32,908 nt of DNA from a bacterium (lineage in GTDB: Bacteria > Zhuqueibacterota > QNDG01): assembly GCA_021158245.1 (NCBI GenBank), contig JAGGVB010000068.1, forward strand, positions 1-32,908, read 5' to 3'. The notes under the pieces are model-generated. The model did not search any database, had not been told where the DNA came from, and was given only the letters and a program-made list of their open reading frames with translations. Positions within the stretch are counted from its first letter, which is position 1. Each line of letters opens with the position of its first letter. The translations under genes were made by a program, and so were the position numbers. Positions 5,195 through 26,382 of the stretch are shown in pieces.

Positions 5195-5291
5195 TTATTT
5201 TCTTTTCCTACAAAAATATTGTTTTTATTTTAGTTTATAGAATTATTTACTGATTTTTATTGCTATCATTTCTCGTCAGGCCACCTTACCC

Positions 5292-5416
5292 CCAACGACC
5301 ACTTGTAAGCGTAGTGCGGGATTAATGCACTTCACTTTCAATTTGCACCGCCGTTTATTAAATCTTATTTCGTTCATTATTAACACTTCACCCGCATTAC
5401 GTTTACAATTTGTTGG
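5292..5416. repeat. Cassette-type recombination-site-like palindrome B
   Basis: The left arm (5292-5320) contains CCAACGACC and TTGTAAGCGTAGTGCGGG. The right arm (5391-5416) contains CCCGCATTACGTTTACAATT then TGTTGG. The two are near-perfect reverse complements around a 70-base centre. The centre shares the pattern TTAATGCAC, ACTTTCAATTT, GCCGTTT and TTAACACTT with element A. It begins 10 bp past the 3' end of the esterase gene. Confidence 0.65.
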
Positions 5417-5426
5417 CAACAGTAAT

Positions 5427-6743
5427 TTATTCAAGTAAATATAATAATCCTTTTGCAAAAGTTTTTCTGGAATTTGACCAGTCGTGCCATCCGTTGAATT
5501 CTATGTATTTATAATCGTATTTTTTATCTTCTAATACTCTGACCATTCTGCGATTACTCCCCAAAACTTGATTTTCCTGTAAACCCCAGTCTAAGAATAT
5601 TTTTATATTTCTTTTCTCTTCCGTCATAAACTTCTCTATTAACCAATCAGTTCTTATCCATTCACCTTTTATTTCTTCAAGTTCTTTATCCCGCCAAAAA
5701 GAGCCAGATTGCGATAATACTTTTCCAAAAATATCGGGGTTGTAATATGAAATATAACTGGCACACAATCCGCCATAACTCATACCGCCAATAATATTTT
5801 CATCGGGTTTTGTACTTAAATTATATTTTTCTCTGATTATTGGTAAGAATTGTGTAGTAAATTCATCTTTAAAATCAGAATTTAGAGAAAGGATTACGCC
5901 TCTCGTGCTACGAAATGTTCCGAACATAACAGCAATCATCGGTTTTATTTTGTTCTCAACAATTAGATTATCAAGAATGTTTGGCACTTCAATACGGTGC
6001 AAATACATAAATGCATCAAACAAATAAACTACCGGGTATGATTGTGGGCGGTTTTTATTATAGCCGGGTGGCAAATACACATAAATATTTCGTTCTCTGT
6101 TAACAACCCTATCTGTGTATTCCAGAGTATCAATTCGGCTTCCAATATTGCTGTGTTTTTTAATATTCAAATTAGGTACTTCTTTTTTCAATTCAAAAAC
6201 TGAGAATGTATATCCTTCAATCTCACCGGTAGGTATTCTGTCCGGATTGAATTTATCAATTTCCTTGTGTTCTTTCCCAGTGATGGTATTCTTGATTATA
6301 AAACGATATGAAAAACAAATATCTACTGGAACTTTATAACATCTGTAATGAAAAGGGGTATTACCTAATTTGTGCAAAGTCATATCACCAAATCTATAAT
6401 CACTATAAATGCCTTGTACTTCAAAAGAAATTTCAATGTTTTTATTATCGGCTTTATACAAAAATGTGATATATTTATAATCGGTATCTAATGTGTCATC
6501 TTCTATAAATGGCAAACCGGATTTTTGAGCATTGACCCAAAGATTTTTAATCTCAGTTTTTAGGGTTTTATTGTCTGATTTCAATAAAGTCTTAATTATC
6601 GGGCTGATGGTTGTGTATGGTCGATTAATTTCGGCAAACCGAATTTTCTTTTCTAATTCTGTATTGTTTACGCTTGTTTCATTTCGACATGCACTAAAAA
6701 ACAAAATCAGAATAAAAAGGATTAAAAAATTTTGTTTTATCAT
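5427..6743 (-). CDS. Esterase-family (alpha/beta hydrolase, enterochelin-esterase-like) lipoprotein
   Basis: The 438-residue protein begins with a lipoprotein signal, a hydrophobic run to FFSAC with the lipidated Cys at 19. The C-terminal half is a putative-esterase domain (COG2382/COG2819 type). It has YPVVYLFDAFMYLHR, the nucleophile elbow GGMSYGG with Ser322, and a C-terminal FNGWHDW with His420 as the likely catalytic His. The N-terminal half resembles the beta-sandwich that precedes the hydrolase in this family. The substrate is unknown; siderophore, xylan-ester or peptide substrates are known in relatives. No Shine-Dalgarno is present before the ATG and the region is very AT-rich, as in Bacteroidetes genes, which suggests transfer. 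It is followed within 10 bp by palindrome B. Confidence 0.85.
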   Translation of the reverse strand: MIKQNFLILFILILFFSACRNETSVNNTELEKKIRFAEINRPYTTISPIIKTLLKSDNKTLKTEIKNLWVNAQKSGLPFIEDDTLDTDYKYITFLYKADNKNIEISFEVQGIYSDYRFGDMTLHKLGNTPFHYRCYKVPVDICFSYRFIIKNTITGKEHKEIDKFNPDRIPTGEIEGYTFSVFELKKEVPNLNIKKHSNIGSRIDTLEYTDRVVNRERNIYVYLPPGYNKNRPQSYPVVYLFDAFMYLHRIEVPNILDNLIVENKIKPMIAVMFGTFRSTRGVILSLNSDFKDEFTTQFLPIIREKYNLSTKPDENIIGGMSYGGLCASYISYYNPDIFGKVLSQSGSFWRDKELEEIKGEWIRTDWLIEKFMTEEKRNIKIFLDWGLQENQVLGSNRRMVRVLEDKKYDYKYIEFNGWHDWSNSRKTFAKGLLYLLE

Positions 6744-9504: not shown

Positions 9505-12174
9505 TCAAAGACGCACTTTCATCAATCTCCTGGAATTTGTCACAACATTTATAGAGCTGAATGCCATAGCAGCCTCTGCAAGAACCGGATGCATCAGGCC
9601 AAGCACTGCGAGAGGTATCATTACAACATTGTAGAAAAATGCCCAGAACAGATTCTGCTTTATTTTTTTAAATGTAGCCCTGCTCAGGTGTACTGCTTTT
9701 GCCACGCTTTCAACATTTCCTTTAACAAGGACAATATCGCCGGCTTCAATTGCAATATCAGTTCCTGTGCCGATTGCAATACCGACATCAGCCTGAGTAA
9801 GTGCAGGCGCATCATTAATACCGTCACCAACCATTGCAACAATTTCACCATTTTGCTGAAGCTCTTTTACCTTCTCTGCTTTTTCATTCGGCAAAACATT
9901 TGCCATAAATTTTTCAATACCTACAAGAGCTGCAATAGCTTTTGCTGTTTTTTCGTTGTCCCCTGTAATCATAACAGGTTTCATACCGAGGGATTTAAGC
10001 TTTTCCACAGCTCTTCTGCTGCTCTCTTTTATAGTATCTGCAACTGCTATCAATCCCATGACCTGATTATTTCTTACAACAATTACTACACTTTTTGCCT
10101 GTGATTCAAGTTCTGCCTTTTTAACAAGAAGAGGTTCAGACAGTGGAATCCTCTCGGACTTCATAAGCTCCTCTGTACCCGCAAGTACGGAAAAATTGTC
10201 AATTACTCCTTTTATTCCTTTTCCCGGAACTGCTTTAAATTCCCGAATTGTTCCTGTTTCTATTCCTTCGGCTCTGCAAAACTCAACAATTGCCATAGCT
10301 ACCGGATGTTCTGATCCTGTTTCTGCTGTTGCTGCGGTTTTAAGCATATCTTCCCTTTTAAAATTGCTTGCTGGAAAGATATCCGTAACTCCCGGTTTTC
10401 CTGTTGTGACAGTACCTGTTTTATCAAGGACAATTGTTGTAACATCTTTCATCCTCTGAATAGCAGAGCCTTTCCGTATGAGAATGCCGTTTTCCGCACC
10501 CTTTCCCGATCCGACCATAAGAGCTGTAGGTGTTGCAAGGCCGAGAGCGCAGGGGCAAGCAATTACAAGTACTGCAATAAAGGAAAAAAAAGCCAGAGCA
10601 GCAGCAGACATGTCAGGATTTACCCACGGGAGAATAAGAGATCCTTTTATTATAATTCCATGGAAAAACTCTGGAAACAGGAGCCAGAATCCCAGAGTCA
10701 ATACTGCTATAAGCAGGATTACAGGCACAAAAACAGCAGTAACTTTGTCTGCAACTGCCTGAATAGGCACTTTTGAAGTTTGGGCCTCTTCAACCATACG
10801 AATAATCTGGCTGAGAAAGGTTTCTTTTCCAAGCTTTGTGGCCTTTATTTTCAGGAGAGAGTCAATATTTATTGTAGCTCCTATAACACTGTTGCCTTGA
10901 GTTTTCTCTACAGGCATGGATTCGCCTGTTGCCAGAGATTCGTCAACAGAGCCCATACCCTCAATTATAATTCCGTCAGTTGGTATCTTCTCACCGGGCT
11001 TTACAATCATAATATCATTTTTCTGCAGAAGAGAAATCGGAATGGTCAATTCTTTTCCGTCCCTTTCAATTCGGGCCTCTTTTGCTTCGAGAGTCAGCAG
11101 CCTTTTAATAGCCTGAGATGCCCGGCCCTTGGACTTTGTTTCTATGTATCTTCCGGTCAGGTGGAATGCCATAATCATTGCACCGACACCTGTAAAGTTT
11201 TGGAATTCCGGAACAACGCCGGCAAGGTGCAGAATAGCTGCAATTCCAGTTGAAAAGGAGGACAACGTCCCCATTGCAATAAGTACATCCATATTGGGAG
11301 AAAGATTTATCGCAGATTTCCATGCACTTCGGAAAGTTTCTTTTCCGGGAATAAAGAATACCAGTGCAGTAAGAACAAATGTGGCTATGGCTGAAAATGC
11401 AGGGCCGAAAACTTGTTTTCCGAAAATCATCTCAGGGATCATAAGGAAAATCACAGGAGCAGTAAATGCCCATGCAAGGAGCATCTTTGTTTTTGCCCTG
11501 TTAATCTTTTTTTCATCCAGGTCTTCCTGAGCCTGGCTGCTTTTATCTTCATCCTTTAATACAAGTTTATATCCTTTTTTTGACACTGCTTCTGCAAGTG
11601 CATTAAATTCTATCCTATCAGAGTTAAAAACAACCTTTGCTGTTTCAGTTGTAAGATTGACTACTGCATCAATAACGCCTTCTTCGGATAAAAGAGCTTT
11701 CTCTACAGTTGATACACACCCGGCACAGTGCATCCCCTCTACAGAAAAAAACGCCTCATTTTTTTCCAGATCCTTCAGTTTTGCCTTGTACCCGGCTTTT
11801 TCTACAGCCTTCTCTATCTCATGAATACTTACCATGGATTTATCAAAATAGAGATGTGCTGATTCTGTTATAAGGTTCACTGCTACATCTATAACGCCGT
11901 CTAATTTTTTAATACTTTTTTCGACTGATGAAACACAGCCTGCACAGTGCATGCCTTCAATTATAAGATTGATTTCATCTTTGCTGCTGATTTTATCCTG
12001 CATTGTTTTTCTTTTATCAATTTCTTTCTCTGAATTAATAAATTTTTCAGGATTAATTAAAAATTTATTTTTGCATGAATCAGAGCAGAAAAAATATTTT
12101 TTATTTCTATATATGGAAGAGAGTGCTCTGTCTGTGTCTTTCACTGTCATTTTACAAACAGGGTCTATATGCAT
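9505..12174 (-). CDS. copA: Copper-exporting P1B-type ATPase with N-terminal YHS and two HMA domains
   Basis: This 889-residue inner-membrane pump exports Cu+ (or Ag+) at the cost of ATP. Domains in order: a YHS domain (residues 1-46, [19 protein letters not shown]); HMA 1 with GMHCAGC at C77/C80; HMA 2 with C150/C153; transmembrane helices; the [10 protein letters not shown] actuator motif; the CPC metal site in IACPCALG (C540/C542); phosphorylation motif DKTGT at D584; GSEHP; and GDGINDAP before the last helices. All catalytic residues are present. The start is set at 12174 because AAGGAT lies 8 bases before it and the YHS domain begins there; the longer frame opens with TTG and no ribosome site. 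It begins 26 bp after the vapC stop, so it may share the vapBC transcript. No CopY/CueR regulator is adjacent. Confidence 0.93.
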
Positions 12175-12199
12175 AAATTTTATCCTTATTAATTGCAAG

Positions 12200-12997: not shown

Positions 12998-14662
12998 CTA
13001 TCTGCCTGCCATGATTGCTTCAACATCAGAAGCAGCATCTCCCACAGGCTTAATATCAAATTTTTCTACAAGTACATTAACAACAGCAGGAGAAAGAAAT
13101 GCAGGAAGCGTAGGCCCAAGCCTTATGCCCTTAAACCCGAGATATAGAAGAGCAAGAAGAACTGCAACCGCTTTCTGCTCATACCATGCTATATCAAAGG
13201 AGATGGGCAGGTCATTTACATTTTCCATACCGAAGATTTCTTTGAGTTTAAGGGCAATAACTGCAAGTGAGTAGGAGTCGTTGCACTGGCCTGCATCCAG
13301 AACTCTTGGTATTCCTCCGATTTCTCCGAGGTTTAATTTATTGTACCTGAATTTTGCGCATCCTGCAGTAAGTATTACAGCGTCTTTTGGAAGGGTTTCC
13401 GCCACTTCTGTAAAATAATTTCTCGATTTGTGGCGTCCATCGCATCCTGCCATTACAACAAACCGTTTAATTGCGCCTGTTTTGACAGCATCAACAATCT
13501 TATCAGCAAGAGCAAGTACCTGATGATGTGCAAACCCTCCTATAATTTCGCCTTTTTCTATTTCCACAGGCGGCTGACATTTTTTTGCCATATCAATAAT
13601 CTCGGAAAAATCTTTCTGCCCGTTTTCTTCTCTGTCCGAAATGTGTTTTACGTTAGGGAAACCTACGTTGCCGGTTGTAAAAACTCTTTCTTTATAAGAA
13701 TCTTTCGGAGGGACCAGACAGTTTGTTGTCATAAGTATAGGGCCATTAAACTGCTCAAACTCCACATTCTGTTTCCACCACGCATTTCCGTAATTGCCGA
13801 CAAAATGTTTGTATTTCTTAAAAGCAGGATAGTAATTTGCAGGAAGCATCTCGCCATGGGTGTAGACATCAACTCCGGTGCCTTGTGTCTGGTCCAAAAG
13901 TTCCTGCATGTCTTTTAAGTCATGGCCGCTTATTAAAATACCGGGATTGTTCCTTACGCCTATATTTACCTTTGTAATTTCCGGATTGCCGTAAGTTTCA
14001 GTATTTGCTTTATCAAGAAGCGCCATTGTGTCAACTGCAACTTTACCGGCCTGAATAACAAAGTCAAACATTGTTTCCTGAGTAATATCCTCAGTTGTTG
14101 ATTTAAGCGCATTCATAAAAAATCTGTATATGGAATCATCCTCATATCCAAGGACATACGCATGTTCGGCATATGCAGCAATGCCTTTCAATCCTATAAT
14201 CAACAGTTCCCTAAGAGATCTGACATCCTCGTTTTCCGTTGCAAGGACAGAGGCCTCTATGCTCTTAGAAAGGAACTCTTCAGCTGTTGAACCAGCCCAT
14301 GTTGCCGAGTCATGCATAATTTCTGTGAATTCTTCTCCGGTTTTTTCGCGGTAAGATTTAAGGAAGTGTTCTCTTGCATTATCTCTTAAATCAAGTGCTT
14401 CTCTTATAAGCTCTGCAAGCTTTTCATCGTCAAAAGTTACATTTGTTATAGTAGTAAAAAGGCCTTTTGCAACAAATCTTCCATGCTCCATGATATTATC
14501 ACCAATCTCATCACTCTTAAGCCCCCAGATTGAAATACCTTTTAAAACATAAATTAAAACATCCATAAGATTGGCTGTTGTGTCATTTTTCCCGCACACT
14601 CCTCTTACTGTACAGCCCTGATTTTTTGCGGTTTCCTGACACTGATAACAAAACATACTCAT
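12998..14662 (-). CDS. hcp: Hybrid-cluster protein (hydroxylamine / NO reductase type)
   Basis: This 554-residue cytoplasmic iron-sulfur enzyme is known in other bacteria to reduce hydroxylamine and to detoxify nitric oxide. The N-terminus [20 protein letters not shown] has cluster ligands C5-x2-C8-x8-C17-x5-C23, the compact spacing of the strict-anaerobe class rather than the longer enterobacterial one. Hybrid-cluster motifs are visible further on: GHDL near 250, [41 protein letters not shown]. Length matches the family (about 550). GAGGAG lies 7 bases before the ATG. The upstream ferredoxin gene is 46 bp away in the same direction, and the pair shares a regulated promoter at about 15620. 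Confidence 0.95.
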
Positions 14663-14708
14663 ATTTCTGCTCCTCTGTGATTTTTTTTAGATTGCATTAT
14701 CGCTATTT

Positions 14709-15569
14709 CTATATATTTAATATGTCTATCCATTCTTCCTGCAGTATTTCTCCTTTTATTGATACAATTACTACTTTTACGGGAACCATTCTTATTGCTT
14801 CAGACATGGCCTTTTTCAAAATCTGAATCATGCCTCCACAGCACGGCACCTGCATTATAAGTACCGTAATTGTATTAACCTTTGCTTCATCAATCATTGT
14901 TTTCAATTTTTCAACATAGATTTCTCTGCCTCCGTCAAGTTTTGGGCATGCAATTGCAATTGATTTTCCTTTTAACCACTTGGTATGGAAATCCCCGAGA
15001 GTAAATGCAGTACAATCTGCAGCGAGAAGAAGATCCGCATTTTTGTAGTACTCTGCAGTCGGCATTGCAAGATGAAGCTGTACAGGCCAATGTGCAAGAT
15101 ATGAAGGGCATTCCGCAGATTCAAAAATTTTGTCTGGTTTCCGATCAATGCTTAAGCTGATACTGCCCGGGCATCCGGATAGCTTCACTCTCTGATGGCT
15201 GCGTACCGTATGTTTTTCTTCAGGCAGTTCTATCCGTTCTTTATCAAGGTAATGTACTGCCTGATTGTACAATTCGGTTTCTCCGTGGTCATTCAGATGT
15301 TTCAAATGTGCGCGTATTGTATTTGCACCGTGATGAACAATATTCTCCATAACCTTATCTTCGTTGTAAGGTTCAGCTGCTCTCTCTTCAATTGTAATAG
15401 CTCCTTCAGGGCAGTGTCCGAGGCATTCGCCAAGCCCGTCGCAAAAAATGTCACTTACAAGACGGGCCTTATTGTCTATTATTTGTATGGCATTTTCCGG
15501 GCAATGGGGAATACATAAGCCGCATCCTGTGCATTTCTCCTCGTCTATTTTGATGATTTCCCTTTTCAC
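14709..15569 (-). CDS. frdX: 4Fe-4S ferredoxin-like partner of Hcp (FrdX type)
   Basis: The 286-residue protein carries an N-terminal ferredoxin domain. The first cluster has C13-x2-C16-x2-C19-x3-C23 (KCTGCGLCIPHCP). The second has C43-x5-C49-x3-C53 (CDGLGECLGHCPEG). The long C-terminal part keeps Cys in SGCPGS, AECPSYL, AADCTAF, ACPKLD and VPCCGGM, possible further ligands. Genes of this type accompany hcp in anaerobes and belong to the HcpR regulon; electron donation to Hcp is the inferred role. The start is a GTG with AAAGGGA upstream. It is the first gene of the operon with hcp. Confidence 0.85.
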   Translation of the reverse strand: MKREIIKIDEEKCTGCGLCIPHCPENAIQIIDNKARLVSDIFCDGLGECLGHCPEGAITIEERAAEPYNEDKVMENIVHHGANTIRAHLKHLNDHGETELYNQAVHYLDKERIELPEEKHTVRSHQRVKLSGCPGSISLSIDRKPDKIFESAECPSYLAHWPVQLHLAMPTAEYYKNADLLLAADCTAFTLGDFHTKWLKGKSIAIACPKLDGGREIYVEKLKTMIDEAKVNTITVLIMQVPCCGGMIQILKKAMSEAIRMVPVKVVIVSIKGEILQEEWIDILNI

Positions 15570-15622
15570 CCGATTTCCCTTTAACCAAAAATAAATTAGG
15601 ATTTCTTTCTTTTCGATATTAA

Positions 15623-15663
15623 ATTATATAAATAAGCAGTATGAATCCTTGATATGGATCAAG
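15623..15663 (-). promoter_or_regulatory. frdX-hcp promoter with an FNR-type activator site
   Basis: A perfect palindrome CTTGAT-ATGG-ATCAAG (15648-15663) matches the FNR consensus TTGAT-N4-ATCAA. On the minus strand a TATAAT -10 box lies at 15628-15623 with a poor -35 (CAAGGA). The palindrome centre is about 40 bp before the predicted start, where class II Crp/Fnr activators bind. Confidence 0.7.
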
Positions 15664-15678
15664 AAAATCAAATATAAT
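15649..15678 (+). promoter_or_regulatory. Promoter of the Crp/Fnr regulator gene
   Basis: TTGATA (15649-15654) and TATAAT (15673-15678) are 18 bp apart on the plus strand. The -35 box lies inside the FNR-type palindrome, so a bound regulator should repress its own gene while activating the opposite operon. Confidence 0.6.
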
Positions 15679-15700
15679 TGAAAAACATGCAATCTTTTAT

Positions 15701-16342
15701 GTGAATTCTATGGATACATTTAACATCATAAAACAAACACCGCTCTTTAAAGCCCTTTCTGAAGAGATGGCAGAATCTCTTGCAAATATTGCCCTTAAAA
15801 AAAGAGTATTAAGAAGAGAAATAATATTTTATGAAGGTGATCCCGGATATTCCATTTACGTGCTTATCAGCGGACAGGTGCAGCTGTATAAGACGAGACC
15901 CGGTGGTAAAGAAATTGTTGTAAAGATGATCAAAGAGAAGGAAATGTTCGGAGAAGTTATCCTTTTTGAAGAAAACAGTTATCCCGTAAGCGCAGTCGCT
16001 CTGTCAGACAGCTCTCTTCTTATGCTGCCAAAGCATCAGTTTTCCTGTCTTCTTGAGAAGCCGAGATTCCGTGAAGAATTTATTACCGTACTAATGCATA
16101 AAATGAGGTATCTTACAAATCAGATACAGTACCTTGCAAGTTATGATGTTGAGGAGAGGCTGTTCCGGTTTTTTAATGAACATTTCGGCAAAAAAGATAA
16201 ATTCAAAATAGATATTTCCAAAAAAGATATTGCTTCAATCATAAACACAACTCCCGAAACTCTCTCCCGAGTCTTGCTGAGGTTAAAAAAAGAAAATAAG
16301 ATTGACTGGGACGAAAGCACAATAACCATAAAAAAAGGCTGA
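15701..16342 (+). CDS. Crp/Fnr-family regulator, HcpR-like
   Basis: About 213 residues: a cyclic-nucleotide-type sensor domain (residues 15-115, FYEGDPGYSIYVLISGQVQL), a dimer helix, and a helix-turn-helix (KKDIASIINTTPETLSRVLL, residues 174-193). The recognition helix has E186-x2-S189-R190, the same contacts FNR uses to read TTGAT, and exactly that site lies upstream. The four Fe-S cysteines of FNR are absent, so it is not an oxygen-sensing FNR. HcpR proteins of anaerobes sense NO, probably through haem. The start is either GTG 15701 or ATG 15710; no good ribosome site marks either. It is divergent from frdX-hcp, which supports the HcpR assignment. Confidence 0.85.
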   Translation: MNSMDTFNIIKQTPLFKALSEEMAESLANIALKKRVLRREIIFYEGDPGYSIYVLISGQVQLYKTRPGGKEIVVKMIKEKEMFGEVILFEENSYPVSAVALSDSSLLMLPKHQFSCLLEKPRFREEFITVLMHKMRYLTNQIQYLASYDVEERLFRFFNEHFGKKDKFKIDISKKDIASIINTTPETLSRVLLRLKKENKIDWDESTITIKKG

Positions 16343-16667: not shown

Positions 16668-18017
16668 ATGACATTCAGAAAGTGGGTTAACAAGCTTAAT
16701 GAAACATATATGAGCGGATATACATGGGACATTTATAATGATTCACTAATTAGTGATACATTAACCCGGGATCAAATACTGGCCATACAGTGGCAAAAGC
16801 TTACAGCCATTATTAATCATGTATATGAGAACGTACCTTTTTATCGCAGGCAATGGAAATCTCTCGGCATACACCCCAAAGACATTCATGATTTCACTGA
16901 TTTCAGCAGTAAAATACCCATTGTCACCAAAGAGGATGTCAGAAATAATATTGAGCTGTTTTTTGCAGATAAAATTCGCCCCGGATTATACAAAGTTAAT
17001 ACATCAGGATCAACCGGAATCCCCGGCACATTTTATCATGACAGTTATTCACGCAGTTATGCAATAGCAATGCGATACAGGGGCAGAAACTGGTGGAATG
17101 TATCCCCAACCGATAATGAAATCAGAATCTGGGGAAGATCAACTTCTTTCAGCCCCTCCCTGAAAGTACGCACAAAAGACAAACTTAAACGATTTAAAGA
17201 TCGTCTGATAGGCGTCAGATATTTATCTACTTTTTATATGCATGAAGAAAAACTGGATTACTGGCTGAATGCAATAAGACAGCATAATCCTGTCGTTATT
17301 TTAGGATATGCCTCGGCCATTTATACTTTTTCAAAATACCTTAAAAATAAAAATATCAATCTTTTTGACCTACCATTAAAAGTAATAACATACACCTCAG
17401 ATTCTTTCTATGATCACCAGAAAGACTTAACACGCCAGGTATTTTGTAAAAATATTGCTTCTGAATACGGATCAGTGGAGATTGGAATTATCGGATTTGA
17501 GGCGCCTTGTGGAAATATCCATATAATGGACGACGCTGTATATCTGGAAAGCATAGAATTTAACGATGAAAAAAATCAATTAGTCGTAACAAATTTAGAG
17601 AATTTTTCTTTCCCTTTAATCAGATACCATACTCAGGACACAGGAACAGTATCTCAAAAAACATGTTCCTGTGAAAGTCCTTTAAACATAATGCACCTTG
17701 AACAGGGCCGTATTTTTGACTTTTTTTATAATGCAAAAGGTGAATTAATTGATCCTGCCAGCATTGACCACGCTGTAAACAGGCCTTTATACACTGAAAA
17801 AGGATGCCGGAGATATCAAGTTATTCAGCAGACAATGGATCAGATTGATGTAATAATTGAATCTTCTTTTCCTGTCTCTGATAATGCAAAAGCAGCTATT
17901 ATAAATAATCTTAATAATCTGATAGGCAAAGATATTTCTGTCAATATTTTCCGGTCAGATCACATAACACCCGAGAAGTCAGGGAAGTTTAAATTTATTA
18001 TTTCGCATTTGCATTAA
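16668..18017 (+). CDS. PaaK/CapK-like adenylate-forming enzyme
   Basis: The 449-residue enzyme belongs to the phenylacetate-CoA-ligase-like / CapK branch of the ANL superfamily. The ATP-binding loop is VNTSGSTGIPG (about residues 110-120), with ASEYGSVEIG and RYHTQDTG further on and a small C-terminal domain containing the Lys-rich SGKFKFI end. Its N-terminus (HVYENVPFYRRQWKSLGI) is diagnostic of the CapK/PaaK group. Members activate a carboxylic acid with ATP, and many lie in polysaccharide or lipid gene clusters; the substrate here is unknown. AGGAAAA precedes the ATG. The next gene, a UPF0104 membrane protein, starts 46 bp downstream in the same direction, so the two are likely co-transcribed. 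Confidence 0.85.
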   Translation: MTFRKWVNKLNETYMSGYTWDIYNDSLISDTLTRDQILAIQWQKLTAIINHVYENVPFYRRQWKSLGIHPKDIHDFTDFSSKIPIVTKEDVRNNIELFFADKIRPGLYKVNTSGSTGIPGTFYHDSYSRSYAIAMRYRGRNWWNVSPTDNEIRIWGRSTSFSPSLKVRTKDKLKRFKDRLIGVRYLSTFYMHEEKLDYWLNAIRQHNPVVILGYASAIYTFSKYLKNKNINLFDLPLKVITYTSDSFYDHQKDLTRQVFCKNIASEYGSVEIGIIGFEAPCGNIHIMDDAVYLESIEFNDEKNQLVVTNLENFSFPLIRYHTQDTGTVSQKTCSCESPLNIMHLEQGRIFDFFYNAKGELIDPASIDHAVNRPLYTEKGCRRYQVIQQTMDQIDVIIESSFPVSDNAKAAIINNLNNLIGKDISVNIFRSDHITPEKSGKFKFIISHLH

Positions 18018-18063
18018 AAATATATTTTTACGTTATTATTAACTGGGAAAAACGGATAACCGA

Positions 18064-19083
18064 ATGTCAGAAAACAATAATAAAAAAACTCTTTATCAAG
18101 CAGTACGGATAATATCAAGCATAGGGCTTATTTCAATTATCTTATTAAAAACAAATTTTCATGATCTATTCAAAGTAATTAAAACTGTAAATCCGGTTTT
18201 TCTTCTTCTCGCAATGTTATTCATGTTCTGTGAAATACTATTAATGTCTTTAAGAATGCACTATTTGTTGAAAATAAAATCAATGAAGGTACCTTTTTAC
18301 GCATTAATAAAATTTAACATGATGGGAAGTTTTGTCGGCAATTTCCTGCCCACAAAACTTGGCGTTGACGGATTAAGGACCTATTTTCTTGCAAAATATA
18401 CAAAACAGACAGTGCACAGTATTTCACTTATTACATTTGATAAATTTCTTAATATTATTGTTGTTACAATATTTGCTACTTTAAGTTTTGTCTTTGCAGG
18501 CTATTATAAAAGGTTTCCCTCATTCGGGGTCCTTATTTTAACAATGATTACCGGAATATTTTTGGTTTTGTTTCTTGTAAGAGAGAAATCCGGAATAAAA
18601 GTAAAGGACTATTTAAAACGTAAAAAATGGTCTGGAAAAATTGTTGCTTTTATTAATGAGTTTTCAGGCTCTTTTGCACAACTACACTACAATAAACACA
18701 AACTATTGATAATTTTTATCTTAGGTATATTTTTTCAAATAAACCGAATTATTACAACGTATTTTTTTGCAAGAGCAGTAAATATCAATGTTGATTTTAT
18801 GTATTTTTTTCTCATTGTCCCCATAATAATGATTCTTGGCATGCTGCCATTCTCTTTTGCCGGAATCGGAATAACTCAATTCAGCGCAGTCCAGTTTTTT
18901 AAGCTTGTGGGAATACAAACCGAGTCTTCTCTTGGTTTTACGATGATTATATATTTCTCCAGAATTGTAATTGCCTTTCCAGGGCTTTACTTTTTTTACA
19001 AAGAAGGCATGGGCACACTTATGGAATCTGTTTCCAAAATCGGTAAACAGTGGACAAAAAGAAATGAATCTGATTCAGAATGA
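18064..19083 (+). CDS. UPF0104 / lysylphosphatidylglycerol-synthase-TM family membrane protein (1)
   Basis: The 339-residue protein has about eight hydrophobic segments, starting with one at residues 15-25 and ending with LYFFYKEGMGTLMES. The segment FVGNFLPTKLGVDGLRTYFL and the later PFSFAGIGITQFSAVQFF are the two signature loops of the family (MprF flippase domain, AglD). These proteins are thought to flip or help transfer lipid-linked groups. A paralogue lies at 23304-24344. It follows the adenylating enzyme closely and ends just before a strong bidirectional terminator. Confidence 0.85.
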   Translation: MSENNNKKTLYQAVRIISSIGLISIILLKTNFHDLFKVIKTVNPVFLLLAMLFMFCEILLMSLRMHYLLKIKSMKVPFYALIKFNMMGSFVGNFLPTKLGVDGLRTYFLAKYTKQTVHSISLITFDKFLNIIVVTIFATLSFVFAGYYKRFPSFGVLILTMITGIFLVLFLVREKSGIKVKDYLKRKKWSGKIVAFINEFSGSFAQLHYNKHKLLIIFILGIFFQINRIITTYFFARAVNINVDFMYFFLIVPIIMILGMLPFSFAGIGITQFSAVQFFKLVGIQTESSLGFTMIIYFSRIVIAFPGLYFFYKEGMGTLMESVSKIGKQWTKRNESDSE

Positions 19084-19107
19084 TACCGGGCTGTTCAAAA
19101 TATTCAC

Positions 19108-19147
19108 ATTTAAAAGAGGCGGCTTTATAAGGCCGCCTCTTTTAAAT
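19108..19147. terminator. Bidirectional rho-independent terminator
   Basis: A perfect 16-bp stem (ATTTAAAAGAGGCGGC at 19108-19123 with its complement at 19132-19147) and an 8-base loop has T-runs in both directions. It lies between the convergent UPF0104 gene and S9 peptidase gene and would end both. Confidence 0.9.
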
Positions 19148-19155
19148 TTTGATTC

Positions 19156-22104
19156 TTAAGTTTCCTTAATCTTTTTATCTTCTGATTTCTCAGCTTTTTT
19201 CTTCTCCTTCTCAGGGGGATTAAGCAGCTTTACCCTATCTTTAAGATGTTCTTTTATCTTCAGATACGGCACGCCTTTTTCCCACCATTCCGGAGCAGGA
19301 GCATCTTTTAAATAATGGTCAAAAAATTCTTTCATCCTGACCATATAATCTTTACGGTTTTCCATCTTTCTAAGGCCATGATTTTCACCTTTATACTCCA
19401 GCAAAACAACGGGTTTTTTAAGCCGCCGCAGAGTATTAAAATATTCAATCCCCTGATTCCAGTCAACAGCTCCGTCCTTATCATTATGAAGAATAATAAG
19501 TGGAGTAACAACCTTTTCAGCATGGTATACAGGTGAGTTTCTTGTATAAGCATCAAGATTATCCCAGAAACCGCCGTAAAATCTGCCCTGGCTGGATTCA
19601 AAAATAGCCATGTTTCCGCCTCCTGAATTCCAGTAGATAGAGGAATACATACTTATCATATTTGTAAGAGGAGCACCTGCTACTGCTGCTTTAAATATCG
19701 GTGTCTGAGTAATATCAAAAGCCGTCTGATAACCTCCCCATGAATGCCCATGAATTCCGATATGATCTTTATCAACAATTCCGGTTTTAATTGCAGCTTT
19801 TACAGCAGGAACAATACATCCTGCAGAAGACATCCCCGGATCATTTATCTTAAAAGTAATGTCCGGAGTCAGAACCGCATAACCATTACTTGTGTAAAAC
19901 GCTTGATTAAAACCTCCCCATGCTATGCCGGGCATAGGATAGTTATTCGCTCTCTGGGACAGTTTTTCGTACATGTATACAATTGTAGGATAACTCTTGC
20001 CCTTTTCGTAATTAGCAGGCAGGTAAAGTGCTCCCTGCAGTTTTTGTCCGCGGTCATTGATAAAATCAACAAGCTTGACTCCTGCAGACCAGCAGAACTC
20101 TTTTTGCTGAGGATTTGCATTTGTTATACGTTTTCCGTTCTGCAGGTTATTGCCTGCAACATAGTAATCCGGAAAATCATGATTCGTTTCTCTTGTGTAA
20201 AGAAAGACATTTTGGTTCTTTGCTTTAAGAAGCCTGCTGAATGAAGCATTCCCCCACAGCAGCCTCTTCGGTCCCGGCCTGCCTTTGTCAATTTTCACAA
20301 TTCCCTTTTTTTTGGTCCATTCTCCGTATACGGTAAAATACTGAGGTTTTGAGAAATCAACTCCCTTTTCTTTGTGATAAATTCTGAAACGATATTGATA
20401 GCGCAGAGAATCTTTTCTGCCGTTAAGAGTAAGATTTACTCCATGCCCTCCGTGAACCGGTACTGACCAGATATCCCAGTTATCGTTTAAAAGAACGCCC
20501 TTGCCGTTTTTTAGCCACGACATAAAACGCGTGGGAGGATTCTTTACGTTGTGATCATCTTCCGTATTAATAAAAGAAACAGGAAGATTTTTTGTTATAT
20601 TGTATGATCTGGAATTTAGCATATCATAAGTATAAAAATTCCCTTCTTTATAATAGATAAAATGTGTACCATCAGGAGAAGGGCTGTAATCCCATCTGCT
20701 CTTTTTTAAAACGAGTTTACGCTTTCCTGTTTTAAGGTCCAACACATATACATCTCTGTAAAAGCGGCCGTCAAGATTGCCCATTAATTCATAAGCGTTG
20801 TCATCATATCCAAGTGCATAATGTCCCTTTGGAGCTGCTTCTACTCTTCTTATATCATCATCTGCAAGACGGAAGAATTTTTTCTCTTTTACTCTGTAAA
20901 TTGAGAGATAACTGTATTTCTTGTCTCTCTGCTCTTCCACCCACTGCTGAGACTGGAGTCTTTTATCCTTCCAGTGCCAGATAACCATGTCTGGCAGTTT
21001 GGGTTCATCTTCCTTCTTTTCCCCCATTTCCTTACTGCCTTTTTTATCTTTGCCTTCCTTCTTGTCTTCAGCCTCTTTTGCTTTCTTTTTCTCCTCTTCT
21101 CTCTTCTTTTCGGCTTTATCTGTCAGCTCGGTTTTATTTATCCCGAAAATAATTGCAGAGAGATCTTCTGTCCATTCAGGGGCTCTGTTATGGCTGATAG
21201 TCATATTTTCAGGAAAGGATGCGTCTTTGAGCGGATTATAAACTATTTTTACAGGGGATTTTTTTGAAAAATCACAGAACCCGATTAGTGTGTAGAGTTT
21301 ATCCTTGTAATCTTCATTTTTCTTGCCTTTAAGCACAGCAAAAGCATCACCCTTTTCTGTCCAGCTTAATTTTTCAAAAACTGCCATATCATTATCAAGG
21401 GACTGCAGCACTCCTGTGTACATATTTCGCAGAAGAATACCGTTGCCTTTTTTACCTTCAGCATCTACAACCATTGAAAGCCATTTACCATACTTGTCAA
21501 ATTGAAACTCAGAGATGCTTCCAAAAAACAGACTCTTGCTGTTATTAAGATTGTAAAGAAGCAGCCCTGCCCCTTTTGCCTTGTCTTTTGATTTTGAAGA
21601 ATTCTCGGATGAATACTCTTTCAATGCTATCCAGTCAGGATTTTCTCCTGAAAATTCAAAATTCTGTATTTTATCAAAAGTTGTGTCTTTTCCTGTAGTT
21701 AAATTTACAAGACACAACTTATCGTAAAGTTTTTTCCTCGTCTTTTTTGATGCTTTAACTGCTTTTGTTGCAGGAGATATTGCAAATGCCGCCCACTTTG
21801 AATCAAATGAAAATAATATTTTTGTGCCGTACCCCTTTTTACCTGCTTCAAATTTATATTCAGTTGTATCTGCAGTATTTCTTAATATAACTTTACTATC
21901 GCCTTCATTAGGTGATAAAACATATCCGAACCATTTGCCGTTATTTGATACTATTGCCGAACGAATACTTTCCCATTTTGCAATATCCCAGATTGCAAGT
22001 GGCTTCTTTTTAATACTCTGCCCTTTTTCCGCAAAGACTGAAAGATTGAAAATAAATAAAATCGCCAGTAAAATTGGTAAATATCGCTTTCCTATTCGTT
22101 TCAT
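19156..22104 (-). CDS. Secreted S9 (prolyl oligopeptidase family) serine peptidase
   Basis: The 982-residue protein has an N-terminal signal peptide (KRYLPILLAILFIFNLSVFA), a long beta-propeller region and a C-terminal alpha/beta hydrolase. The nucleophile elbow is HGHSWGGY with Ser788. Asp877 in HNDKDGAVDW and His909 in GENHG complete the triad. It should cleave peptides in the periplasm or outside the cell. An insert of Lys/Glu-rich low complexity (about residues 326-368) interrupts the propeller, and a second charged tail ends the protein. GGGAGA lies 8 bases before the ATG. It is unlike its lipid-related neighbours and is transcribed on its own. Confidence 0.9.
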   Translation of the reverse strand: MKRIGKRYLPILLAILFIFNLSVFAEKGQSIKKKPLAIWDIAKWESIRSAIVSNNGKWFGYVLSPNEGDSKVILRNTADTTEYKFEAGKKGYGTKILFSFDSKWAAFAISPATKAVKASKKTRKKLYDKLCLVNLTTGKDTTFDKIQNFEFSGENPDWIALKEYSSENSSKSKDKAKGAGLLLYNLNNSKSLFFGSISEFQFDKYGKWLSMVVDAEGKKGNGILLRNMYTGVLQSLDNDMAVFEKLSWTEKGDAFAVLKGKKNEDYKDKLYTLIGFCDFSKKSPVKIVYNPLKDASFPENMTISHNRAPEWTEDLSAIIFGINKTELTDKAEKKREEEKKKAKEAEDKKEGKDKKGSKEMGEKKEDEPKLPDMVIWHWKDKRLQSQQWVEEQRDKKYSYLSIYRVKEKKFFRLADDDIRRVEAAPKGHYALGYDDNAYELMGNLDGRFYRDVYVLDLKTGKRKLVLKKSRWDYSPSPDGTHFIYYKEGNFYTYDMLNSRSYNITKNLPVSFINTEDDHNVKNPPTRFMSWLKNGKGVLLNDNWDIWSVPVHGGHGVNLTLNGRKDSLRYQYRFRIYHKEKGVDFSKPQYFTVYGEWTKKKGIVKIDKGRPGPKRLLWGNASFSRLLKAKNQNVFLYTRETNHDFPDYYVAGNNLQNGKRITNANPQQKEFCWSAGVKLVDFINDRGQKLQGALYLPANYEKGKSYPTIVYMYEKLSQRANNYPMPGIAWGGFNQAFYTSNGYAVLTPDITFKINDPGMSSAGCIVPAVKAAIKTGIVDKDHIGIHGHSWGGYQTAFDITQTPIFKAAVAGAPLTNMISMYSSIYWNSGGGNMAIFESSQGRFYGGFWDNLDAYTRNSPVYHAEKVVTPLIILHNDKDGAVDWNQGIEYFNTLRRLKKPVVLLEYKGENHGLRKMENRKDYMVRMKEFFDHYLKDAPAPEWWEKGVPYLKIKEHLKDRVKLLNPPEKEKKKAEKSEDKKIKET

Positions 22105-22170
22105 TTGTTATCTCCCATTTTAATTGAACTATCTTTTTGATTATAATTATTATTAACAAACGGCATCATA

Positions 22171-22186
22171 TTTTGTACGTACAAAA
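22171..22186. promoter_or_regulatory. Perfect 16-bp palindrome, operator candidate
   Basis: TTTTGTACGTACAAAA is a perfect palindrome in the intergenic region between the divergent peptidase and CDP-alcohol phosphotransferase genes, 67 bp from one start and 168 bp from the other. The shape resembles GntR- or TetR-type operators. No regulator gene is adjacent. Confidence 0.5.
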
Positions 22187-22353
22187 ATACCGAATGTTTT
22201 AAAAAACTTCCGCCTTTCTGTTATATCTATCTTCTCTTGCATAAATATCTTTTAATAATTAATCTGTCTGCAGATTTTATTTGTATTTACAAACTTTTTT
22301 TGTATATTTTGTGTCTTGATGCATACAGATAAAAATAATAAAAATGGAAAACA

Positions 22354-23307
22354 ATGAAACATGGATTAAAAAAAAGTTTTGCCCGTTCTATCAAACCGGT
22401 TGAGACTGAAGAACCAATAGATCTTTTTATATTCAGGCCAATCGGCCTGATGCTAGTAATGATTTTAAAAGATTTACCAATATCTCCGAACGTAATTACT
22501 GTATTCTCATCTATTACAGGATTAGCTTCAGGTTATTTCTTTGCTCAGGCAACACCTTTATCTGCCATGCAAGGAGCATTTTTTTTAATCCTTACGAATA
22601 TTCTGGACTGCACAGACGGCCAGCTTGCCCGGTTCAGGGGCACAAGTTCAAGGCTCGGTAAAACACTTGACGGTATAGGCGATAGTGTAACTTACTTTTC
22701 CATAACTGCAGGGGTTACTATCAGCATGATTCACAACAGCAGCATACAGCCGTGGCTATTGTGGGTGTTTGCCGTGATTGCACTTATAAATGAAGTCATA
22801 CACATACATCTTTTTGATCATTTTAAAAACGAATTAATCTTCTATTCAATACCGGAATACCATGAAAAACTTGAAAGTATTGAATCATTAAAAAACCATA
22901 AAAAAACCCCGGAATATATTGCCTCAAGTAAAATACACAAATTTTCCTTTTCAGCATATTTAATCTATTATATAATAGAAGAGACTCTGTCTATGCTTGC
23001 ACACCCCAAAAATTACAAAGGCTTTCTCGGATGGTATGAAACAGATTCAATAACACCGGAGGAAGTTAAGCAATCATTCCGGAAGAATTACCTCCAATAC
23101 AATAATCTGATGGTCAGAGGATGGAGCCTCCTCGGTGCAACAGCACATATTTCAGTATTTATTATTGCAGGGCTTCTTAACCGTTTGGACCTTGTATTTT
23201 GGGTTATATGTGTTCCTTTTAATATATGGCTTGTTTTTTTAATAATTGCCCAAAGAACTATTTTCCATTATGAATTGAGGAATGCTGATAAAATAATTTC
23301 AGGTTAA
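22354..23307 (+). CDS. CDP-alcohol phosphotransferase family enzyme
   Basis: The 317-residue membrane enzyme carries the complete family signature D85-x2-DG-x2-AR-x8-G102-x3-D106-x3-D110 (DCTDGQLAR ... GKTLDGIGD). It would move a phospho-alcohol group from a CDP-activated donor to an acceptor alcohol, releasing CMP. An insert of about 90 residues between the catalytic helices and the last membrane helices (HEKLESIESLKNHKKTPEYI) is soluble and charged; it is longer than in PgsA or PssA. The ribosome site is weak. It ends convergently with the second UPF0104 gene, stops overlapping by 4 bp. The neighbouring cytidylyltransferase-like gene suggests the donor is made locally. Confidence 0.85.
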   Translation: MKHGLKKSFARSIKPVETEEPIDLFIFRPIGLMLVMILKDLPISPNVITVFSSITGLASGYFFAQATPLSAMQGAFFLILTNILDCTDGQLARFRGTSSRLGKTLDGIGDSVTYFSITAGVTISMIHNSSIQPWLLWVFAVIALINEVIHIHLFDHFKNELIFYSIPEYHEKLESIESLKNHKKTPEYIASSKIHKFSFSAYLIYYIIEETLSMLAHPKNYKGFLGWYETDSITPEEVKQSFRKNYLQYNNLMVRGWSLLGATAHISVFIIAGLLNRLDLVFWVICVPFNIWLVFLIIAQRTIFHYELRNADKIISG

Positions 23308-24344
23308 TCAGCTTCCTGCAGTTCCTCTGGTTTTTTTACCAGAATATCTGAAAAATACTTTGCAGTTACAAAACCGCCTAATATTGCTGTTAAAAACTGG
23401 TAGAAGAAGCGCCACAGAAGTACAGCAACTCCAAGAAGATATTTTGGCACTGCTCCTGCAAAAATAATTACAAATATCACTTCTCCCAATCCGGATGTAC
23501 CCGGAGTAGGCATAAACACAATAAGAAACAGCAACAATGCACTTAAAGCAAATCCTTTAACATAAGGCAATGATATTCCCAAACCGCTGAATATTGCCCA
23601 CAGCATTGCAACCTGAGTCAGATACATCATTCCGCTTAAAAATGTCCCGGCTGTAAAATAACCAAACCCCGTACCAAAAAACTGCCGGAAACTGGCACGT
23701 GCAACTAATATCTCTCTTGATGATTTTTCAATGAAATTTTTCTTATCTTTAATAATATGCAGTCGTTTAAGTATGTGTGCCGCCATACCTGCAAATTTAA
23801 TGACTATATTCGGGCGTAAAAGTCCGGCGACTGCAATGAAACCAAATGCTATAAAAAGTCCGCCGGTAATCAGAAATATTATTCTGAGGCTCTGTATACT
23901 CGTAATTAACCGCCCGAAAAACAGCAGAGAAAAAATGGCTCCAGAAAACACAAACAACGCCATTGTCAGAACTCTTGTTATTACTACTGAAGTGCCCTTG
24001 CCGCTTGATATACCCTCTTTCCTCAATACATAAACCATAAAAGGCTGGCCGCCAAAGCTGAATGGTGTAATTAAATTGAAAAATACAATTAATGCGGACA
24101 ATTTGACAGCTTCAAAAAATTTAATTGTTTCGCCTGTTCCTTTAACAAAAAATAACAGCCTTAAGCCATCAATAAATAATTCGGTAAAATACAGGCCTAT
24201 GACTAACAACAGATATCTGATATCTATTGATTTAACAGCCTTGTATGTTTCACTGTTTGCAGTAAACAGAAAAATCAATACAATTGTAATAAAACTCAGC
24301 CCTAAAAAAATGAGCAGTCTTCGCATGTTCAGGGATAATTTCAT
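23304..24344 (-). CDS. UPF0104 / lysylphosphatidylglycerol-synthase-TM family membrane protein (2)
   Basis: The 346-residue protein has eight or so hydrophobic segments. The family loops are FNLITPFSFGGQPFMVYVLR and MPTPGTSGLGEVIF, clearer matches to the MprF/AglD core than in the paralogue at 18064. Role inferred: flipping or transfer of a lipid headgroup at the inner membrane. Its start overlaps the end of the nucleotidyltransferase gene by 4 bases, which indicates translational coupling and a shared pathway. The paralogue pair in one cluster is notable. Confidence 0.87.
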   Translation of the reverse strand: MKLSLNMRRLLIFLGLSFITIVLIFLFTANSETYKAVKSIDIRYLLLVIGLYFTELFIDGLRLLFFVKGTGETIKFFEAVKLSALIVFFNLITPFSFGGQPFMVYVLRKEGISSGKGTSVVITRVLTMALFVFSGAIFSLLFFGRLITSIQSLRIIFLITGGLFIAFGFIAVAGLLRPNIVIKFAGMAAHILKRLHIIKDKKNFIEKSSREILVARASFRQFFGTGFGYFTAGTFLSGMMYLTQVAMLWAIFSGLGISLPYVKGFALSALLLFLIVFMPTPGTSGLGEVIFVIIFAGAVPKYLLGVAVLLWRFFYQFLTAILGGFVTAKYFSDILVKKPEELQEAD

Positions 24345-25084
24345 TCTTGGCCTGTAAAATATGTTTTTATAATCTCCTGAGCTCTTTGATAATCATCAGG
24401 AGTGTCAATTTCAATGCATTTATAGGGAGAGATATCTAATCCAAAAAGCTCCTCTCCTTTATCAATCACTGCCTGGAATGAAAGTTCATAAAATTCATTC
24501 GCGCCTGATTTATAATTAATACTTATATCAAGCTCATTAAATAATTCAGTTCCGAATGATGCACTGAATTTCTCTATTCCGATTGATTCTCCGTTTGAAG
24601 ATTCAATGTTCAGTTCCTTGCTTATTTTACGCACTAATCCGAAACTATCTAATTTCACTTTCATATCTTCGGCAAATATATCTCCTTCTGTTCTTACAGA
24701 AAGAATGTCTTTGTGTTTGTCATCCAATACTTTTTGAATAATATGCCGGTCAAAAACTATATCTGCATCAAGCAGTAAAAACTGTCCGTATATTGAATCC
24801 TTTGCCAGCCACAAAGAGTAGCTGTTATTGGTAGTTGAATATTTATCATTATGTATCCACTTGACATTCAAACCGGGAAAATGTTTAAGCACATGTTCCT
24901 TTAACTGATCACTTTCAAATCCTGTAACTATGACAAATTCATTCAAACCGGCCCAAATCAAATTTCGGAGTGTAAAATCCAAAATGGTTTTGCCGTCAGA
25001 CAGAGGTAAAAGGCACTTGGGTTTTGAATTAGTTAACGGCTTTAATCTTTTTGATTCCCCTGCTGCAAGAATAACAACCTGCAT
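24341..25084 (-). CDS. Nucleotidyltransferase for a phospho-alcohol (LicC / inositol-phosphate cytidylyltransferase type)
   Basis: The 247-residue Rossmann-like enzyme begins VVILAAGESKRLKPLTNSKP, the nucleotide-binding signature. It has STTNNSYSLWLAKDS (about residues 83-97) and LLDADIVF with the metal-binding D106-x-D108. The N-NSYSLWLA block is typical of the LicC and inositol-1-phosphate cytidylyltransferase group that activates alcohol phosphates with CTP. The product would be the CDP-alcohol for the phosphotransferase at 22354. It overlaps the UPF0104 gene downstream by 4 bases. Divergent from the aminotransferase gene across a 227-bp region. The exact substrate is unknown. Confidence 0.83.
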   Translation of the reverse strand: MQVVILAAGESKRLKPLTNSKPKCLLPLSDGKTILDFTLRNLIWAGLNEFVIVTGFESDQLKEHVLKHFPGLNVKWIHNDKYSTTNNSYSLWLAKDSIYGQFLLLDADIVFDRHIIQKVLDDKHKDILSVRTEGDIFAEDMKVKLDSFGLVRKISKELNIESSNGESIGIEKFSASFGTELFNELDISINYKSGANEFYELSFQAVIDKGEELFGLDISPYKCIEIDTPDDYQRAQEIIKTYFTGQE

Positions 25085-25200
25085 TATTTAGTCCCGTAAT
25101 TTAATAGTACAATAAACCTCTGCTTAAAATAAATTTTTCTAAGCTACAACATAGGGAGCAAATATACAAGAAATTTTATTTGTAATTTTTAAAAAAAACC

Positions 25201-25229
25201 TTGAGTTATTTAAAAAAATGAATTAAATT
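25201..25229 (+). promoter_or_regulatory. Possible promoter of the aminotransferase gene
   Basis: TTGAGT (25201-25206) and TAAATT (25224-25229) are separated by 17 bp in the region between the divergent nucleotidyltransferase and aminotransferase genes. The match is fair and the area is AT-rich, so chance is possible. Confidence 0.35.
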
Positions 25230-25311
25230 TATCGTCTTTAAAAATAACGTAGGAAATGGTAGTACCAATAATAATTGTAAAATTGGACTTTTGACCGGGG
25301 ATCAGATAATT

Positions 25312-26382
25312 ATGCAGAAAATACTTCTAAATAAAAACGAAAACAAATACGGGCCTTCTCAAAAATGTCTCGACACACTGACTAATGCAAAAATAAATGA
25401 TTTAACCGATTATACGAGAGATGACAACAACACTCTGCGTACCAAACTGTCGGAAAGATTCAATGTCCCTGTTGAGCAGATAATTCTCGGCTATGGTTCA
25501 GAAGATCTGATTCACCGCATATTTGATACATTTCTGCAGCCGCAGGATAAAGTATTGCTATGCAGCCACGGCTGGTACTACTATTGTAACCTATGCAAAA
25601 AAAGAAACATGCAGCAGCACCATTATCATCTCTACAGGCAAAAGGACAATTATATTTATAATTATGATGAACTTCATAACCAGTTTAATGAAATAAAACC
25701 CAAATTAACCATAATCGGTTCCCCGACAAATCCTACAGGTACATGTTTCAGCACTTCCGAATTTGAGAAAACGATTGCAAATGTCCGGGATGATCAGATT
25801 CTTTTCTATGATATTGCCTACTACGGGTTTTCAAAAGAAGATGACCCACCCATTGCAGAATGGATTAAAAATTCTAAAAATCTGGTTATCACAAGCTCCT
25901 TCTCAAAATATTTTGCTCTCGCAGGAGTGAGAATAGGTTATGCATTTATAAGCAGCAATTTAATCGATAAATTTATGCCAAGCAAGAGACTCCTCGGGTT
26001 CAGTCAAATCCTGGAGAATGTAGCAATAGCTGCACTTGATTCTGAAGATTACTACTCGGATATAGCAGCAAAAATTGGCAATGACCGCAAGGCAATTATC
26101 CAAAAAATTAACTCCATACCCGGATTCACTGCATTTGATTCCAAAGCAAATTTTATCCTTGCGGAGTACCCTAAAGAGGTGAGGGAACTCTTTGAGCAGG
26201 AACTTGACAAAAAAAATGTCCTGATTAAATTTATCTCAGGCGAGCCATTATTCCAGAATATGGTAAGGATAAGCATAGGCACACAAGAGCATACAAAACT
26301 GCTTCTCGAAGCATTGGACAATCTGTCATATATTCTGGAAAAAAATTATGCTGACAGTATTGAAGCTTCTGTTATTGAATAG
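25312..26382 (+). CDS. HisC-like class I/II PLP-dependent aminotransferase
   Basis: The 356-residue enzyme has the fold-type I motifs: SPTNPTGT with Asn140, D167-x2-Y170 in FYDIAYYGF, the PLP lysine K199 in TSSFSKYFALAG, and R207 in VRIGY. It resembles histidinol-phosphate aminotransferase but has no his genes around it. The start at 25312 is chosen because relatives begin near MQKILLNKNENKYGPS; the longer frame opens with TTG. In other bacteria, HisC-like enzymes beside cytidylyltransferases make amino-alcohol phosphates (for example serinol phosphate in Campylobacter surface glycans), or decarboxylate amino acid phosphates as CobD does. Either would suit the neighbouring CDP-alcohol genes. 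The substrate is inference only. Confidence 0.85.
   Translation: MQKILLNKNENKYGPSQKCLDTLTNAKINDLTDYTRDDNNTLRTKLSERFNVPVEQIILGYGSEDLIHRIFDTFLQPQDKVLLCSHGWYYYCNLCKKRNMQQHHYHLYRQKDNYIYNYDELHNQFNEIKPKLTIIGSPTNPTGTCFSTSEFEKTIANVRDDQILFYDIAYYGFSKEDDPPIAEWIKNSKNLVITSSFSKYFALAGVRIGYAFISSNLIDKFMPSKRLLGFSQILENVAIAALDSEDYYSDIAAKIGNDRKAIIQKINSIPGFTAFDSKANFILAEYPKEVRELFEQELDKKNVLIKFISGEPLFQNMVRISIGTQEHTKLLLEALDNLSYILEKNYADSIEASVIE

Follow-up and report, generated by a model that had tools for sequence, protein, structure and literature searches.

A conserved aminotransferase, nucleotidyltransferase and CDP-alcohol phosphotransferase cassette as a candidate route to an amino-alcohol phospholipid headgroup

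Related headgroup systems and the proposed pathway

Among described systems, the alternative inositol-lipid cluster found in Prevotella and Bacteroides vulgatus comes closest to the locus considered here; besides MIPS and a HAD hydrolase, it contains an NTP transferase paired with a CDP-alcohol phosphotransferase (PMC9246714). The present locus lies on positions 1 to 32,908 of contig JAGGVB010000068.1 (assembly GCA_021158245.1, a bacterium of the Zhuqueibacterota), a 32,908-nucleotide stretch referred to as the window. It encodes a HisC-like pyridoxal phosphate (PLP) aminotransferase, a LicC/PntC-like cytidine triphosphate (CTP) nucleotidyltransferase and a CDP-alcohol phosphotransferase, together called the cassette. 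As in the Prevotella and B. vulgatus cluster, an NTP transferase adjoins a CDP-alcohol phosphotransferase, with an LPG_synthase-type membrane protein nearby (PMC9246714), but the aminotransferase stands in place of MIPS and the HAD phosphatase, and the nucleotidyltransferase has an acidic amine site.

Three further systems invite comparison. In the Kennedy pathway (a cytidylyltransferase with CEPT1), CTP activates an amino-alcohol phosphate that a class I CDP-alcohol phosphotransferase then transfers, whereas the cassette would use a HisC-type PLP enzyme in place of the kinase, a LicC-like nucleotidyltransferase and a phosphotransferase with an insert. The cytidylyltransferases LicC (choline phosphate) and PntC (aminoethylphosphonate) share their metal and amine-contact positions with the cassette nucleotidyltransferase (PMC6697681), but the cassette lacks licA/licB/licD or phosphoenolpyruvate (PEP) mutase partners. 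Finally, the Campylobacter jejuni PLP enzymes Cj1437 and Cj1436 draw on central metabolites to form small amino-alcohol phosphates, and Cj1437 was shown to be an aminotransferase converting dihydroxyacetone phosphate (DHAP) to serinol phosphate (PMC11800397). The likeness drawn here is one of reaction, and the two Campylobacter enzymes serve capsule glucuronate amidation, without CDP activation or lipid transfer (PMC11800397).

We propose that the three enzymes probably constitute a Kennedy-type, CDP-amino-alcohol headgroup pathway with a HisC-type PLP enzyme at its first step. The aminotransferase would aminate a small keto-phosphate, with glutamate as the probable amino donor; in the simplest case, DHAP would yield serinol phosphate. 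The nucleotidyltransferase would combine this product with CTP to form a CDP-amino-alcohol, from which the phosphotransferase would move the amino-alcohol phosphate onto a lipid alcohol (diacylglycerol or similar), creating an amino-phospholipid. In near relatives only, a UPF0104 membrane protein coupled to the nucleotidyltransferase may carry the new lipid across the membrane. What would be new is the joining of a HisC-type aminotransferase to a CDP-alcohol headgroup route, the enzyme families themselves being known. A literature search, thin on subscription journals, found no published description of the triad or of a phosphoserinol lipid, and no NCBIfam equivalog scores above its cut-off for the window aminotransferase or nucleotidyltransferase.

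Conservation and co-inheritance of the three genes

Among 59 related genomes, including the window's own (G000), strong matches to all three enzymes are confined to the same five (G000, G011, G014, G022 and G026). Within these five, the aminotransferase scores 472-492 bits (next best 200), the nucleotidyltransferase 294-547 bits (next best 158) and the phosphotransferase 280-709 bits (next best 71). The carriers span three families, while some of their relatives at genus or family level have none of the three genes; the set is apparently acquired and lost together. The aminotransferase, phosphotransferase, second UPF0104 protein and nucleotidyltransferase genes are neighbours in all five of the nearest genomes, with the aminotransferase differently positioned in the window.

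A scan with a phosphotransferase alignment, in which each of 84,980 species was represented by a single genome, returned 50 loci. The carriers are almost all uncultured metagenome-assembled genomes (MAGs), and their phylum labels are those of the depositors. The aminotransferase, the nucleotidyltransferase or both adjoin the phosphotransferase in MAGs labelled Ignavibacteriota (the majority), Bacteroidota, Spirochaetota, Acidobacteriota, Krumholzibacteriota and Chlorobiota, and all three genes recur jointly, linked or unlinked, in MAGs of six labelled phyla. The outer neighbours vary, with polyphosphate kinase, DUF192 and rhomboid genes in one Ignavibacteria group and glyceraldehyde-3-phosphate dehydrogenase (GAPDH) and phosphoglycerate kinase genes in another, which leaves the three enzymes as the constant part. 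Where Ignavibacteria have the aminotransferase beside the phosphotransferase but the nucleotidyltransferase is not adjacent, the latter is found elsewhere in 10 of 11 genomes (E 4e-74 to 2e-81), compared with none of nine phosphotransferase-bearing genomes without the aminotransferase at that level of match (Fisher p=1.2e-4, uncorrected for kinship). Co-inheritance even where the genes are unlinked is good evidence for one pathway, and on these genomic grounds a joint pathway is likely.

The three genes are thus a real conserved cassette. The earlier note on this DNA had assigned six genes to one chemistry; the aminotransferase, nucleotidyltransferase and phosphotransferase do stay together across phyla, accompanied in near relatives by the nucleotidyltransferase-linked UPF0104 gene, but the CapK-like gene and the first UPF0104 gene fall away as pathway members, since their linkage to the cassette is not conserved.

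Loci of other composition were also seen. Tannerella/Tannerellaceae MAGs (L070, L075, L077, L079, L081, L084 and L094) hold a relative of the phosphotransferase without the aminotransferase or nucleotidyltransferase, flanked in L079 by a short-chain dehydrogenase and an acyltransferase; here the phosphotransferase family serves some other purpose. At four loci (L055, L062, L071 and L072), phosphotransferase-like genes form a tandem pair adjoined by neither the aminotransferase nor the nucleotidyltransferase. In one Ignavibacteria group (L076, L080, L082, L083, L085, L087-L089 and L099), the aminotransferase and phosphotransferase come after genes for GAPDH and phosphoglycerate kinase, as annotated in L083, a triose-phosphate setting that fits a DHAP substrate but may be due to chance. 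Lastly, L033 (genome G052, positions 1084-2702) carries diverged nucleotidyltransferase (37%) and phosphotransferase (28%) genes with a 4-base overlap, in a genome with no cassette-level aminotransferase, and is possibly a related pathway with a different substrate.

Active sites and candidate substrates

A closer look at the nucleotidyltransferase shows that its signature and metal residues, Arg13, Lys23, Asp108, Glu225 and Asp227, are invariant in all 25 cassette members. In PntC, Glu196 and Glu104, equivalent to LicC Asp192 and Asp105, are positioned to contact the substrate amine (PMC6697681). Our alignment places Asp106 of the cassette enzyme at LicC Asp105/PntC Glu104 and Glu200 at LicC Asp192, and both are invariant in the same 25 members, with an aromatic pair at 198-199 beside Glu200. 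Inositol-phosphate cytidylyltransferase (IPCT; PDB 2xme) has a glycine at the Asp106 position, which is variable in nucleotidyltransferase relatives outside the cassette. Together, these features favour an amine-bearing phosphate as the substrate, and we consider the presence of the amine fairly probable. With LicC and PntC as the nearest structures and the acidic amine contacts kept, the enzyme is LicC-type, as the earlier note had it, and not a sugar-nucleotide enzyme.

The glycine of IPCT also bears on a rival proposal, in which the nucleotidyltransferase and phosphotransferase form an alternative inositol-lipid pathway through CDP-inositol and the aminotransferase is a bystander. The proposed Bacteroidetes alternative cluster does have this enzyme pair beside MIPS (PMC9246714), and MIPS is present in the window genome, on another contig. 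However, the aminotransferase is co-inherited with both other enzymes, the cassette nucleotidyltransferases have an invariant Asp106 where IPCT has glycine, MIPS went unmatched in 16 of the 24 cassette genomes, and the MIPS gene of the window genome adjoins its own PIP-synthase-like gene on contig C169, apart from the cassette. The last two observations make inositol an unlikely cassette substrate, and the CDP-inositol proposal as a whole is very improbable. The C169 locus (L044, ~4104-6448) places MIPS, a frame of 437 aa with its Pfam match at C169:4338-4676, close to a PIP-synthase-like gene of the CDP-alcohol phosphotransferase family (5819-6448), so that the genome seems, from its gene content, to have a separate inositol-lipid route.

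Distant relatives of the nucleotidyltransferase in the same phylum (~30%) were rejected as cassette members, as they occur in other gene contexts and their amine site varies. One adjoins a glycerophosphotransferase and an ABC transporter. The glycerophosphotransferase lends something to a rival reading, in which a surface glycan, and not a membrane lipid, receives the CDP-activated product, on the model of Lic and Pnt; LicC and PntC themselves serve glycan decoration (PMC6697681). The constant partner in the cassette is nevertheless a membrane CDP-alcohol phosphotransferase, and not LicD or a glycosyltransferase, and we regard a glycan destination as improbable.

In the phosphotransferase, the motif DX2DGX2ARX8GX3DX3D is complete at residues 85-110 (DCTDGQLAR-X8-GKTLDGIGD), and its last aspartate is kept in 45 of 53 homologues. 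The unusual insert described in the earlier note is borne out by a confident AlphaFold2 model (mean predicted local distance difference test score, pLDDT, 93; predicted template modelling score, pTM, 0.90), in which extra helices at ~167-230, about 65 residues, lie between membrane-length helices. A fold search with this model returned AF2299 as the best match, followed by other CDP-alcohol phosphotransferases. The acceptor would presumably be a lipid alcohol.

The aminotransferase is closest to HisC in both sequence and predicted fold, and all of the top fold matches are HisC. A rival reading takes the enzyme for the organism's histidinol-phosphate aminotransferase, placed here by chance, and it is indeed the genome's best HisC match (240.7 bits). 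Against this, the score to hisC (TIGR01141; 240.9 bits) is under the cut-off of 276.55, and no histidinol dehydrogenase was found in the genome, which is 95% complete. Furthermore, 34 cassette aminotransferases form one clade (support 100/100) on a stem of 1.72 changes per site, with 19 HisC-like paralogues from the same genomes falling outside it, and the linkage is kept across phyla. The catalytic residues Asn147, Asp174, Tyr177, Lys206, Arg214 and Arg326 are invariant within the clade, and several positions set it apart from the paralogues: Lys313 (mostly Arg in the paralogues), Arg43 (mostly Asp), Arg233 (mostly Leu), Trp95 (Phe/Tyr) and Tyr97 (small or aliphatic). The sub-cut-off score, the missing dehydrogenase and a separate clade with its own active-site residues place the enzyme outside histidine synthesis; a histidine role is strongly disfavoured, and this rival as a whole is extremely unlikely. 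The bulkier Trp95 and Tyr97 suggest a substrate side chain smaller than imidazole.

HisC chemistry converts R-CO-CH2-OP to R-CH(NH2)-CH2-OP, and DHAP would thereby give serinol phosphate. Serinol phosphate is a possible, though tentative, identity for the aminotransferase product and nucleotidyltransferase substrate; ethanolamine phosphate is rather less likely, and a larger aminopolyol somewhat less likely still. Ethanolamine phosphate would be expected if the enzyme were a PLP-dependent phosphoserine decarboxylase resembling Cj1436, with serine phosphate leading through ethanolamine phosphate and CDP-ethanolamine to phosphatidylethanolamine (PE) or another ethanolamine-phosphate lipid. Decarboxylation of L-serine phosphate to ethanolamine phosphate has been demonstrated for Cj1436 (PMC11800397), CobD of the phospho-amino-acid decarboxylase family is also matched by all 32 cassette aminotransferases tested, and the additional conserved Arg43 and Arg233 could hold a carboxylate. 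The CobD score (TIGR01140; 130.1 bits, cut-off 290.55) is, however, far under the HisC score, the top fold matches are all HisC, and Pss/Psd already supply PE in almost all carriers; we therefore judge the decarboxylase unlikely. Aminoethylphosphonate, the substrate in the PntC pathway, is disfavoured, as no PEP mutase scored over cut-off in the 24 cassette genomes, nor in control genomes.

Amino-polyol phosphate headgroups are known from lipids. Aminopentanetetrol (APT) phospholipids have been reported from Aquificae and methanogens (PMC4318418, PMC3035279, PMC6423904), and their headgroup could arise by transamination of a ketose phosphate, followed by activation with CTP and phosphotransfer. 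They differ from the cassette in being known as lipids, in other organisms. A literature search found no genes assigned to APT lipids, and the one phosphotransferase scan of 84,980 species, with its narrow patterns, returned no loci from Aquificae. A link between the cassette and APT is speculative. We put at somewhat less than even the chance that the cassette makes an amino-polyol phosphate headgroup without earlier gene assignments, be it that of phosphatidylserinol, derived from DHAP, or aminopentanetetrol through ketose-phosphate transamination.

Coexisting lipid genes, locus layout and implications

The earlier note found none of the usual PE, phosphatidylserine or inositol lipid genes beside the cluster. 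This is true within the window, but they are present elsewhere in the genome, with pssA and psd together on contig C171 and the inositol pair on C169, and the cassette would thus be a headgroup route additional to those for PE and inositol lipids. Psd was found in 35 of 36 genomes tested, which rules out the cassette as a replacement of PE synthesis.

Several points weigh against a CDP-amino-alcohol pathway. With Psd in nearly all carriers, the need for a second amino-lipid is unexplained. The co-inheritance counts are inflated by kinship, and seven genomes have the phosphotransferase but neither the aminotransferase nor the nucleotidyltransferase, indicating that the phosphotransferase family has other uses. 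HisC-type folds also include decarboxylases, and serinol phosphate from DHAP is a first guess.

All of the genes described in the earlier note were located (Table 1), as was the 4-base overlap between the nucleotidyltransferase and second UPF0104 genes (ATGA, 24341-24344). The 3′ end of the phosphotransferase gene likewise overlaps the convergent second UPF0104 gene by 4 bases. The aminotransferase frame opens with TTG at 25291; the probable start is the ATG at 25312, which agrees better with homologues. The second UPF0104 protein, which is kept beside the cassette in the five nearest genomes only, is predicted to be flippase-like. Its 346 aa consist of LPG_synthase_TM alone, without the C-terminal aminoacyl-transfer domain of MprF (lysyl-phosphatidylglycerol synthase), so that "MprF-type" describes its membrane part only.

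Table 1. Genes of the cassette region, in window coordinates
Feature	Position	Strand	Matches
CapK-like gene	16668-18017	+	
UPF0104 (LPG_synthase_TM), first of two	18064-19083	+	
S9 peptidase	19156-22104	-	
CDP-alcohol phosphotransferase	22354-23307	+	CDP-OH_P_transf, 50.1 bits
UPF0104/LPG_synthase_TM membrane protein, second of two	23304-24344	-	PF03706, 117.2 bits; flippase-like TIGR00374, 109.7 bits
LicC/PntC-like CTP nucleotidyltransferase	24341-25084	-	Nearest solved structures LicC 1jyk, PntC 6pd1
HisC-like PLP aminotransferase	25291-26382	+	Aminotran_1_2, 149.5 bits

Without conserved linkage, the CapK-like gene, the first UPF0104 gene and the S9 peptidase were ruled out as cassette members. 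CapK homologues (27-28%) occur in three g13 genomes but at other positions, and S9-type peptidases lie a few genes off in g13 genomes with a match of only 26-31%. Elsewhere in the window, positions 12998-16342 encode a hybrid-cluster (prismane) protein, a 4Fe-4S ferredoxin-type protein and a divergent CRP/FNR-type regulator, and look like an ordinary nitrosative-stress locus. Positions 9505-12198 encode a heavy-metal P-type ATPase with an N-terminal YHS domain and heavy-metal-associated (HMA) domains.

If the proposed pathway is correct, a common de novo route to a CDP-activated amino-alcohol, and to the phospholipid made from it, would have gone unnoticed in at least six phyla. Current annotation would miss this route, as the enzymes are labelled HisC, sugar nucleotidyltransferase and CDP-alcohol transferase, and aminotransferases of the cassette type should be named HisC only with caution. 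The cassette would also provide a testable gene set for the unidentified aminophospholipids of environmental lipidomes, possibly including the aminopentanetetrol lipids.

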